Origin: Natronomonas marina
GTDB taxonomy: Archaea > Halobacteriota > Halobacteria > Halobacteriales > Haloarculaceae
Assembly (NCBI RefSeq): GCF_024298905.1
Contig: NZ_CP101154.1
Span: 1,674,001-1,738,000 of the forward strand
Reading direction: 5' to 3'
Length of the DNA: 64,000 nt
Every line of letters starts with the position of its first letter. The first letter of the stretch is position 1. Made by a program: the position numbers and the translations under genes. Below the pieces are notes generated by a model. It had not been told where the DNA came from. It did no database searches and saw only the letters and a list, made by a program, of their open reading frames with translations. This document shows, one piece after another, positions 34,568-38,221 of the stretch.

Positions 34568-35260
34568 ATGATAGAGCACGAGGGACTAAAACTGGAGTGG
34601 CTCGGATACGCCACGGTCCGCCTGGCCGCGGCCGGAACGGTCGTCTACCTCGACCCGGGCAGGTACGGCGTCCTCGACGGGTACGAACCGGGCGACGGCG
34701 ACGTGATCTGCGTCTCCCACGACCACCACTACGACTCCGAGGCCGTCCGGTCGGTCGCCGGCGAGGACGCCACCCTCGTCGCCTTCGAGGGACTCAACAC
34801 CCACCGCATCGACCGCGACGTCGAGCGGCCCGTCGACCTCCCTTGCGAGGTCCGTCGCGTCGACGACGAGGCGGACGTCCTCGTCGACGACGCCATCGTG
34901 CGGACGACCGCGGCCTACAACGACCCCGACGGACCCCACGTCGGCCCGGGCGGGAAGCCGTACCACCCCGAGGGGTTCGGCTGTGGCTTCCACGTCACGC
35001 TCGACGGCACGTCCGTCTGCTGGCCGGGCGACACCGACGTGCTGGCGGGACAGGAGCGCCTCGCTGTCGACGTGTTCTGCCCGCCAATCGGCGGGACGTA
35101 CACGATGGATCGGCACGCTGCCGCCGAGTTGGCCGAGGCGATGGCCCCCTCGGTCGTCGTTCCGGTCCACTACGACACCTTCGAGGCCATCGAGGCCGAC
35201 GCCGAGGCGTTCGTCGAGGACTGCCGTTCCAGGGGCGTCAGCGCCGTCCTAGACGAGTAA
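34568..35260 (+). CDS. Metallo-beta-lactamase-fold hydrolase, UlaG-like (230 aa)
   Basis: The protein starts KLEWLGYATVRLAAAGTVVYLDPG and carries the metal motif VICVSHDHHYDSEAV (HxHxxD variant), GFHVTLDGTSVCWPGDTDVL and the C-terminal VVVPVHYDTF. It belongs to the UlaG-like branch of MBL hydrolases, whose substrates vary from lactones to nucleic acids; the substrate here is unknown. The protein is cytoplasmic and of normal length. The ATG at 34568 opens the first strand. Its 3' end overlaps the convergent zinc-ribbon membrane gene by 12 bases. Confidence 0.9.
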   Translation: MIEHEGLKLEWLGYATVRLAAAGTVVYLDPGRYGVLDGYEPGDGDVICVSHDHHYDSEAVRSVAGEDATLVAFEGLNTHRIDRDVERPVDLPCEVRRVDDEADVLVDDAIVRTTAAYNDPDGPHVGPGGKPYHPEGFGCGFHVTLDGTSVCWPGDTDVLAGQERLAVDVFCPPIGGTYTMDRHAAAELAEAMAPSVVVPVHYDTFEAIEADAEAFVEDCRSRGVSAVLDE

Positions 35261-35512
35261 CACGACGGCCAGCGAGACGAGCGCGAGAACCGAGAGGAGA
35301 AAGAGCGCACGGAAGACGAGCCCGACCCGCGGGTCGCCGTCGACGAGGCTCCGGTCGGCCGACCTCGGCTCCAGAAGCCGGCGACGGACCGCCAGCAGCG
35401 AGTACCGGCTCTCGCGGCCGCCGTCGTCGGGTTCGACGTCGGTCGATCCGCAGCGACACGTCTCCGGTGGGTCCTCGTACGTCCGGTCGCACTCCCGGCA
35501 GCGCCAGCCCAT
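35249..35512 (-). CDS. Zinc-ribbon membrane-anchored small protein (87 aa)
   Basis: The N-terminal MGWRCRECDRTYEDPPETCRCGS is a zinc ribbon with CRECD and CRCG pairs. The last 25 residues (VFRALFLLSVLALVSLAVVLLV) make one transmembrane helix. The middle is charged. A start at 35545 is possible, but MGWRCRECD at 35512 is preferred since the domain begins there. Function unknown; the domain resembles rubredoxin-like modules of many haloarchaeal membrane proteins. The 3' end overlaps the MBL hydrolase gene by 12 bases on the other strand. Confidence 0.7.
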   Translation of the reverse strand: MGWRCRECDRTYEDPPETCRCGSTDVEPDDGGRESRYSLLAVRRRLLEPRSADRSLVDGDPRVGLVFRALFLLSVLALVSLAVVLLV

Positions 35513-35593
35513 ACCGTTCGGCAGGCCCGGCAAAGAGAAAAGCATGGGGACGGCGGCCGGGGCCGTCTCGATGCGGAGGTGGCCGGTCGTCGT

Positions 35594-36145
35594 TCAGTCT
35601 AAGATGTCGATAATCCGACCGGGACCCGACCCGTCGTAGTACTCGTCAGGCGCTGCAACTCTGAAGGTGTGTTCCGACTCCACGTCGATGTAGTCGAAAA
35701 ACGCCGTCGGTGCCGCATACCAGTAGTACCCGTCTTCTTCGTCGACTGGTTCGTTATCGTTGATTTCGTCGGGCGTGCTGAGATCGAGTGCAAACACGAC
35801 CCACGTCCTGATGCCGTCCAATTCAGCGGCTATCTCCGAGATCGGGAGTTCGGCCAGCGAAGTCCCAGGACTGATGTCCTCGGTGTCCGCGTCGATGCGC
35901 GGTTCGATCCGTTCGTCGATCCATGCCTCGTCCGGCCAGAAATGGATAACGGATGTCGAGCCGGTTTCTTCACCTTCTCGTTTGTGGCCCATCCATAGTT
36001 GTTTTCCGCCAACGGCTGCGGCCACCGTATCGTCGTCCTTGCTGCCACTGGTGTTTTTCGTGTTCAGCGCCGAACACCCCGCGAGCGAGACCCCTCCGAC
36101 GAGAGCGATACTGCCGAACCCTTGGAGATACCTCCGTCGGTCCAT
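35594..36145 (-). CDS. Twin-arginine lipoprotein (183 aa)
   Basis: The N-terminus MDRRRYLQGFGSIALVGGVS and the lipobox LAGC (Cys24) show a twin-arginine-exported lipoprotein. Mature residues are acidic; GKQLWMGHKREGE, VIHFWPDEAWIDERIEPRID and IRTWVVFALDLSTPDEI are the recognisable strands. I do not recognise a family. G+C is below the genome average but above that of its divergent neighbour. The 86-bp AT-rich gap to the Cys-rich gene could hold both promoters; if that gene is a bacteriocin precursor, this lipoprotein is a candidate for self-protection or export. That is speculation from position. Confidence 0.75.
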   Translation of the reverse strand: MDRRRYLQGFGSIALVGGVSLAGCSALNTKNTSGSKDDDTVAAAVGGKQLWMGHKREGEETGSTSVIHFWPDEAWIDERIEPRIDADTEDISPGTSLAELPISEIAAELDGIRTWVVFALDLSTPDEINDNEPVDEEDGYYWYAAPTAFFDYIDVESEHTFRVAAPDEYYDGSGPGRIIDILD

Positions 36146-36231
36146 GAGAATCCATTACTACCTTGACCAAATAATATTTTCGTCTAAATTTAAACATAAT
36201 ACTTTCAAACAAGCAGGTATAGTACATTATC
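36146..36231. promoter_or_regulatory. AT-rich divergent promoter region
   Basis: About 75% A+T, in a genome near 67% G+C, between the divergent lipoprotein gene and the Cys-rich gene. Several TATA-like blocks occur (AATAATATTTT at 36168, AAATTTAAACATAATACT at 36184, GGTATAGTAC at 36216). For the plus-strand gene, AATACT at 36199-36204 is 28-33 bases before the ATG. Confidence 0.5.
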
Positions 36232-37098
36232 ATGGTCTGGAAATCAATCAAAAGAATCTGGGGAGAGAATGAAAACGATCCAGACGACCCGGAGATTCAG
36301 CGACGTACTGTTCTTCGCACAGCTGCCGGAGCAAGCACAGCCGGCGTAGCGATCAGCTCCGTCAATGGATCTAGCACTTCGGAAAACCCTGAAATAGCTG
36401 ACCCAGTCGCCCGGTACTATACGGAAAACTCTGAACACAGCCCGACAGAAGTACATCTTGCAAATGATGAAGAAAAAGCAATTCTCACCGAACAGTTCAT
36501 GAGATACGGAGAGGACCTAATACAGCTTCTTTCCGAAAAAGGGATTTTTAAAACAGCAGTTGTCGATATGGAGTCTTTTCAAACGGGTGCTGTATTCTCG
36601 AAAATCGGCACGAAAGAAGCCGATACTGAGTCAGCATATGTCGGTTTAAGAGAGGTTGACGTCCGACTCCGTTCGGAATTATATTACAAGATACAAAAGT
36701 CCGCTGACGAGGGAGTGATTGACCAGCCTACTAAATTCATCATTAGCGTGATTCCTGCGACTGGCGACGCGTACGCTCACTCGACCCCGGAGATACAGAG
36801 AGGGACCAAGGCAGAGGTTCCTCAGCGCCTTATCGACCCGGGCCGTAATGTCGCTAGTCTCGCTGAGAAAGAGGGGACGGTGCTCAGCGAGAACGACGTA
36901 ATCCTGTTCGGGCTCTGCTTTATCCGCTGTGAGCGGTACACTGCGTGTCCGCTTAATTGCGCTGAAATTCGAATCTGCTGTCAGGCCGAAAATTGTTCGA
37001 GCCAATATACGGGCTACTGTTGCGGTGGTCGGGAATGTCCGAGTGCATGCTGTATGGGCCCCCGAGACCCATGTCCGGACGGTAGCTGCCCTCAGTAG
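36232..37098 (+). CDS. Tat-exported protein with 14-cysteine C-terminus: halocin-like precursor candidate (288 aa)
   Basis: The N-terminus has a twin-arginine signal (QRRTVLRTAAGASTAGVAIS, residues 24-43). Residues 44-228 contain no cysteine and form an acidic, mixed alpha/beta domain (LTEQFMRYGEDLIQLLSEKG, VGLREVDVRLRSELYYKIQK). The last 60 residues hold 14 cysteines, including three CC pairs, from FGLCFIRCERYTACPLNC to CPDGSCPQ. Halocin C8 has the same plan: a Tat-exported precursor of about 283 aa, an N-terminal immunity domain and a Cys-rich mature peptide. No sequence identity is asserted. Codon use and high A+T point to horizontal origin. Alternatives: a metal-binding or disulfide-rich surface protein. 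Confidence 0.75.
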   Translation: MVWKSIKRIWGENENDPDDPEIQRRTVLRTAAGASTAGVAISSVNGSSTSENPEIADPVARYYTENSEHSPTEVHLANDEEKAILTEQFMRYGEDLIQLLSEKGIFKTAVVDMESFQTGAVFSKIGTKEADTESAYVGLREVDVRLRSELYYKIQKSADEGVIDQPTKFIISVIPATGDAYAHSTPEIQRGTKAEVPQRLIDPGRNVASLAEKEGTVLSENDVILFGLCFIRCERYTACPLNCAEIRICCQAENCSSQYTGYCCGGRECPSACCMGPRDPCPDGSCPQ

Positions 37099-37114
37099 CC
37101 GCACCCAGGACCGG

Positions 37115-38221
37115 CTACAGCACGCCCATCTCGTCGAGCCGTTCGGGGAGGTAGGTGTCGGTCACGAAGTCCAGGCCACGCGAGGCCAGCGCCTGCTGTT
37201 CGGCCTTCTTCTCGATGTCGAGTTGCAACTCGATCTGCTCGGTCCAGAACTCGTCCTGGAAGCGCGGGTCCTCGAGTTCGCTCTCCAGGGCGTTGACGTC
37301 GGAGTCGCTGAGCGGGTCGGTCGGCAGGTCGTAGTCGACGATGTCCTGCGGCCGGATGCCGATGAACTCCGCCTCGGGGGTGGCGAGGTACTCCGAGAGG
37401 TGGGCGGACTTGATGGAGCCGTAGGCGACGGAGCCGTAGATGCGGTACGACCAGGGGTCGCCGTCGGTGAACACCACGACCGGCAGGCCGAGTTCGTCCC
37501 GGAGCCGTTTGGTGAGCCGTCGGGTCGCCCGCGCCGGCTGTCCCTTGAGATGGACGACGACGACGTTGTACTCCTCGTCGAAGCCGTTCTCGACGAGCCT
37601 GTCCCGCATGCCGCCGGTCTCGACGCACAGCACGAAGTCGGCGTCGTGGTCCAGGAACTCGATTGTGTCGGGGTTGTTCGGTATCTGGTAGCCGCCCTCG
37701 CCGACGTCCTTCTGGCAGTGGATCTCGCGTTCGCCGCGGCGGGTCTGCTCGCGGAGGTACAGCGGTCCCATCACCGTCGCGCCGGACTCCTCGGGCCGCA
37801 TGTGGAAGTCCTCGCGGGTGACCTCGCTGACGATCTCGAGGTCCTCGATGAGCTGGTTGGACTCATCCTGATCGTTGAACTGGGCCCGTTCCTCGTCCCA
37901 CGATTCGGAGAGGTAGTACAGTTCACGCAGCGTCGACGAGCGGCCCGCCTCGAGCTGTTCGGCGAGGAATTCGATGGTGTAGACGGCCTTCAGGAGCTTC
38001 TGGGCGCCGCGGACGCTGTTGGCCGACCGCGTCGAGTGGCTGTCGCCGTACACCCACACCTGCTCGTCCTCGTCGAAGACGATGTTGTTCTTCGTCCGGG
38101 TCGGTATCTCCATCCGCGGGACGCTGCCGTCGGCGAACTGGTCGTAGAACTGTGCCGCGAGGTCGATGAGCTTCTCTCGGGCCTCCTCGTCTTTGACGTC
38201 GGGGTTGGTGTCGGTACTCAT
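37115..38221 (-). CDS. top6A: DNA topoisomerase VI subunit A
   Basis: The strand-cleaving subunit of topoisomerase VI, relative of Spo11. The tyrosine pair in [11 protein letters not shown] (Tyr102/Tyr103) includes the DNA-cleaving residue, and the Toprim acidic motifs are in [10 protein letters not shown] and [15 protein letters not shown]. Length of 368 aa is normal. The start at 38221 follows 2 bp after the top6B stop, so the two subunits are made from one message, as in other haloarchaea. It ends 17 bp from the convergent Cys-rich gene. Confidence 0.97.

Follow-up and report, generated by a model that had tools for sequence, protein, structure and literature searches.

A Tat-exported haloarchaeal precursor with a 14-cysteine tail, resembling halocin C8 in plan and placed in a proposed separate superfamily

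Can a haloarchaeal gene that follows the plan of halocin C8 but differs from it in sequence encode both an antagonistic peptide and the means of restraining it? Halocin C8 (HalC8) derives from ProC8, a 283-aa precursor that is exported by the Tat pathway and matured into an immunity protein and a peptide (PMC11509114). We analyzed a 64,000-nucleotide stretch of the Natronomonas marina genome (1.674-1.738 Mb of 3.99 Mb, henceforth the window), in which a preliminary description had proposed a precursor of this kind. The features of the locus, in window coordinates, are:

35249-35545, minus strand: conserved flanking gene for a 98-aa zinc-ribbon-like membrane protein (same-genus locus comparison)
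35594-36145, minus strand: divergent Tat lipoprotein gene, 183 aa, in the same insertion as the precursor gene, GC3 69% (ORF, composition)
36189-36194, plus strand: TTTAAA, candidate TATA box 43 bp before the ATG (sequence)
36232-37098, plus strand: precursor gene, 288 aa, stop included (ORF, relatives' alignment, Cys count)
36232-36366, plus strand: Tat signal region, residues 1-45 (QRRTVLRTAAG), kept in both close relatives (sequence)
36367-36846, plus strand: Cys-free acidic N-domain, residues 46-205 (alignments, profile comparisons)
36847-36915, plus strand: junction, residues 206-228, a variable stretch followed by conserved TVLSENDVIxxG; putative processing region (alignments)
36916-37095, plus strand: Cys-rich tail, residues 229-288, 14 Cys (relatives' alignments, Cys counts)
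37115-38221, minus strand: conserved flanking gene for DNA topoisomerase VI subunit A (family matches, same-genus locus comparison)

The precursor ORF runs from an ATG at 36232 to a TAG at 37096-37098, and we consider it coding because full-length homologues occur in two other haloarchaeal families. Its GC content and GC3 are both 51%, whereas GC3 in the flanking topoisomerase VI genes is 92-93%; together with the TTTAAA box, this agrees with the AT-rich gene and promoter described previously. No Shine-Dalgarno sequence is evident upstream of the ATG. The Tat motif (RRTVLR) was recognized by eye, the Pfam TAT_signal match being below cut-off, and the signal region contains no lipobox cysteine. 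The precursor matched no NCBIfam or Pfam family above cut-off.

We recounted the cysteines and recovered the described architecture in full: the protein begins with a Tat signal, residues 1-228 are free of cysteine, and the final 60 hold 14 (residues 229, 233, 239, 243, 249, 250, 255, 263, 264, 269, 273, 274, 281 and 286), including the three CC pairs 249-250, 263-264 and 273-274. With an assumed background Cys frequency of 0.9%, the probability of 14 Cys in 60 aa is about 3e-16. No other 60-aa stretch in the window's 350 stop-to-stop frames of 100 aa or more matches the tail in Cys density; the second-densest contains 10 and comes from an improbable frame. By hydropathy the tail is hydrophilic (GRAVY -0.28), and it contains no CxxC knuckle. 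A structure model of the full-length precursor was unusable (pLDDT 32). The model of the tail (pLDDT 58.5) suggests a three-stranded sheet and had no match in the PDB.

A search across the class retrieved two full-length relatives, one from Halopiger djelfimassiliensis (L002, 36% identity to the window precursor) and one from another genome (L003, 28%). In each, a Tat signal precedes a Cys-free N-part and an 8-Cys C-part. L002 is 33% identical to the window protein over the N-domain and 42% over the C-part; L003 is 22% and 36% identical, respectively. The framework common to the window tail and L002 comprises C233, C243, C250, C255, C264, C269, C274 and C281. Six of these (C233, C250, C255, C264, C274 and C281) are aligned in all three proteins, and C243 and C269 have counterparts in L002. 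Since the whole L002 framework is present in the window tail, six of the cysteines there are extra. The N-domain is best conserved in a helical segment, EEKAILTEQFMRYGEDLIQLLSEKGIFKTAVV, the helix coming from a low-confidence structure model, and in a later strand motif, TKFIISVIPATGDAYA. Other weak single-sequence matches mostly reflected similarity of the Tat signal; out of 20 inspected, only L128 was a Cys-tail precursor, and it is of the HalC8 type. Viral contigs, phages and plasmids yielded no relatives; a HalC8 query does find plasmid copies, which shows that the plasmid search is effective. The 170 genomes searched from a fourth haloarchaeal family yielded none either (a search run without a positive control).

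The alignments also bear on where the tail might be released. Conservation of the C-part begins ahead of the first cysteine, with TVLSENDVIxxGxxF already conserved from residues 216-228 and the pattern [LI][SD]E[NY]D[VA][IV]xxGxxF at residues 218-230. The peptide start near residue 225 proposed previously therefore looks late, and cleavage around residues 205-216 is more likely; the variable part of the junction is the likely processing region.

We asked how far the N-domain extends beyond these three proteins, using profiles from which Tat signals and tails had been removed. Two other precursor types entered this comparison: the G family (L021/L094 and L095-L099), in which a Cys-free N-part stands between a Tat signal and a 10-Cys tail, L098 and L099 being without an evident intact Tat signal; and L137, with a Tat signal, the N-domain and a 4-Cys tail. 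L137 was detected both by the window-family profile (E 6.5e-4, compared with 0.012 for the best among about 2,400 decoys) and by the G-family profile (E 4.6e-5; best decoy 0.086). We then searched a combined N-domain-only profile against 271 genomes. Besides the known relatives and L151/L154, a frameshifted L137 homologue in G364, five new matches passed E 0.01. One (L156) was a false match to a helicase, and the other four (L152, L153, L157 and L158) each have a Cys-rich tail. Because the profile held no information on tails or signals, the recovery of such tails in four of five new matches is strong independent support. L157 (G059) has its Tat motif in another frame and is frameshifted or mis-sequenced. 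The frameshifted copies in G364 and G059 suggest gene turnover.

Leave-one-out hmmsearch recovered the G family (all but L094), L137, L152, L153, L157 and L158. The window family stayed at noise level in this test (L002 0.026, best decoy 0.028; the window protein unseparated), so its link to the superfamily rests on profile-profile comparison. There, hhalign scores between the three-member window profile and the other superfamily members were 34-39, whereas the best of 60 column shuffles scored 19.5 and none of the 60 reached the real scores. The similarity of the N-domain to the superfamily thus exceeds chance, both by hhalign against shuffles and through the L137 bridge. On this evidence from profiles, we propose that the N-domain connects the window family with six or more other types of haloarchaeal precursor, in an unnamed superfamily of Tat-exported precursors with a shared N-domain and diverse tails that are probably disulfide-bonded. 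We found no published description of it in a literature consisting mostly of freely accessible papers.

All checked members have no cysteine between the Tat signal and the tail, and an even number within the tail: 14 in the window protein, then 8, 8, 10 (G family), 4, 8, 10, 12 and 10. One extra Cys in L095 sits upstream of the real Tat start and was not counted. Even counts throughout suit fully paired disulfides. They bear on the reading in which the tail permanently serves as a structural or metal/redox-binding module (a surface adhesin, protease inhibitor or metal scavenger) that is neither cleaved nor toxic. Metalloproteins can be exported by Tat, hydrophilic tails occur in many inhibitor folds, and the C-part is closer to L002 than the N-domain is. 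We nevertheless consider a permanent module rather unlikely: the N-domain persists while the tails differ completely between superfamily members, the even counts fit oxidized peptides, the window tail has no CxxC knuckle, and no match to a metal-binding family was obtained in Pfam, NCBIfam or the PDB.

The same division between a common N-domain and diversified tails makes it improbable that the antimicrobial part is instead an N-terminal fragment set free by a protease. Haloarchaea do have such a system: in Haloferax mediterranei, a helical peptide of 45 aa from the N-terminus of HmHapP (HFX_0892) carries the activity (PMC12893001). The best-conserved part of the window N-domain is likewise predicted to be helical. 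In our dataset, however, what diversifies is the Cys-rich tail, and no homologue of the window protein occurs in the 145 other genomes of its family.

We examined the genes adjoining the precursors. The preliminary description had suggested a survey of homologues for co-occurring transporter or immunity genes; an ABC-2 transporter does adjoin the G-family genes and L152, but the window precursor has no ABC-2 transporter, CxxC membrane protein or protease gene next to it. The nearest NCBIfam models to the ABC-2 ATPase are DrrA and lantibiotic protection, both below cut-offs, and the transporter is a candidate immunity or export system. ATPase and permease occur together at L163:5309-7197 and at L166, L167, L168, L169 and L159, in more than one gene orientation.

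The CxxC membrane protein has an N-terminal CxxC, a YLRGYLVPGTPxLTK motif and a C-terminal ESCC, and belongs to no named Pfam or NCBIfam family. It lies directly 3' of L152 and L158 and about 1.1 kb from L003, and it also adjoins the HalC8-type precursors L043, L059 and L100. The copies are:

L165:9565-10503, L159:8514-9323, L162:6756-7532, L100:415-1383, L043:706-1443 and L059:175-990: CxxC membrane protein

These six neighbors in about 46 loci exceed the roughly estimated expectation of about 0.13, in a comparison made post hoc. The protein is present in 39 of 43 genomes at about 2-3 copies per genome, usually away from precursors, which weakens the case for a dedicated halocin partner. Because most copies lie elsewhere and the window genome's own copy is 1.3 Mb from the precursor, the association is suggestive only. 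A role as a disulfide or immunity factor is possible.

Neighboring genes are also relevant to whether the precursor yields a signaling or kin-recognition peptide and not a killer. Secreted, diversified disulfide peptides can serve as signals, and several loci, that in the window included, are single genes without obvious immunity genes. We judge this very unlikely, as no linked receptor or two-component system was found near members (where annotation is incomplete) and the ABC-2 and CxxC neighbors better match bacteriocin-type loci.

We compared the locus with those of the same genus, where the topoisomerase VI-A locus was recovered in 18 of 20 genomes. In three of them (L077, L083 and L084), the gene for the 98-aa protein almost abuts topoisomerase VI-A, whereas in the window these genes are separated by about 1.57 kb that carries the lipoprotein and precursor genes. 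In L080, L082 and L093, the slot beside topoisomerase VI-A holds other DNA, including a different lipoprotein-like ORF in L080 and L093. The gene content of this slot (35545-37115, between topoisomerase VI-A and the 98-aa gene) varies between species of the genus. The precursor is present in 1 of 146 genomes of its family, that of the window, and in none of the genus-mates. The divergent Tat lipoprotein gene is where it had been described; it was rejected as a conserved partner of the precursor since no homologue is found at the relatives' loci. The precursor and lipoprotein genes form a lineage-specific, low-GC3 insertion that was recently acquired, and we read the variable slot beside topoisomerase VI as having taken up this foreign pair.

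An acquired gene could be decaying without function, as its atypical GC3, its single occurrence in genus and family and the frameshifted relatives in G364 and G059 might suggest. This is hardly credible for the window gene, whose ORF, Tat signal and TATA box are intact and whose framework cysteines and junction motif are conserved.

The reading that we prefer, with a probability of roughly 0.55, is that the window gene has a HalC8-like function in a different superfamily: the tail of a Tat-exported precursor would be released as an antagonistic disulfide peptide, and the N-domain would provide immunity or holding. The two-part plan of L002 and L003, the 8-Cys framework inside the 14-Cys tail, and the ABC-2 and CxxC neighbors of some superfamily members were all counted in its favor. 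We infer the following course. The two-part protein would be exported by Tat, with the superfamily N-domain (about residues 46-205) holding it inactive and/or protecting the producer; the tail (about 206-288) would fold as a disulfide-bonded mini-protein, which an extracellular protease would sever from the exported precursor and which would then act on competing haloarchaea. The maturation of ProC8 and the activation of haloarchaeal precursors by a protease, halolysin (PMC12893001), are precedents for this mechanism. More tentatively, the superfamily may constitute a second system unrelated to HalC8, in which one N-domain is combined with interchangeable tails of 4-14 Cys, genes are transferred, and accessory genes (CxxC, ABC-2) are partly shared with HalC8-type loci.

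Among archaeal antimicrobials, few of which are known at the gene level, halocin C8 has been characterized best. A second family with the HalC8 plan, another sequence and a recognizable N-domain would offer a handle for finding archaeal disulfide peptides, and would allow one to test whether archaea generally encode precursor and self-immunity together in a single gene.

Homology to HalC8 was rejected at the sequence level. TIGR04449, which occurs in 32 of 292 class genomes and is above cut-off in 31 genomes other than that of the window, matched neither the window protein (NCBIfam search) nor anything else in its genome; BLASTP of the window protein against HalC8 gave E 0.24; and hhalign of the N-domain against HalC8 N-domains gave a probability of 0.3%, within shuffled noise, although the heterogeneity of HalC8-family N-domains weakens this as a test of homology to HalI. 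A match of N-domain strands to HalC8 made by eye was not supported. Neither the N-part nor the tail showed detectable kinship to HalC8, and the new family that had been considered possible is borne out. The precursors L031-L060 share the halocin C8 domain, and their N-domain groups are not all connected by hhalign, a hint that N-domains have been replaced or have diverged very fast; a very distant common origin with the window protein is for this reason conceivable. Separately, L103 (G171) is possibly a further precursor type with a halocin-like plan: it is about 290 aa long, has a Tat signal and ends in a hydrophobic C-part that contains Cys, but TIGR04449 does not recover it.

Among known systems, ProC8 offers the closest comparison of plan. 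L034 encodes a 283-aa precursor of ProC8 length, whose last 76 residues we take to fit HalC8. Shared with the 288-aa window protein are the Tat signal, a Cys-poor N-part of similar size (Cys-free in the window protein), a Cys-rich C-part whose mature form has an even number of Cys (10 in HalC8), the single-gene locus and the patchy distribution. The size, the Tat export and the split into two parts had been pointed out in the preliminary description. HalC8, however, is a hydrophobic 76-aa peptide with 10 Cys (GRAVY +0.89). The window tail carries 14 Cys, has CC pairs and is hydrophilic, which does not point to a membrane mode of the HalC8 kind.

Lanthipeptides require lanthionine synthetases. 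Haloarchaeal lanthipeptides (PMC10105419) are likewise Cys-rich peptide products, but the window precursor is Tat-exported and no LanM-type gene was present among the inspected neighbors. Halocin S8, compared by description only, is also a small microhalocin cut from a longer precursor (PMC12893001, PMC11509114) but is a 36-aa peptide of about 3.6 kDa. For HmHapP, again compared by description, no Cys-rich tail is described (PMC12893001); its activation by extracellular proteolysis of a secreted precursor, as with halolysin, is established there and proposed here. The window precursor is thus, by its sequence, not a member of the halocin C8 family, and by analogy of plan it plausibly works like HalC8.
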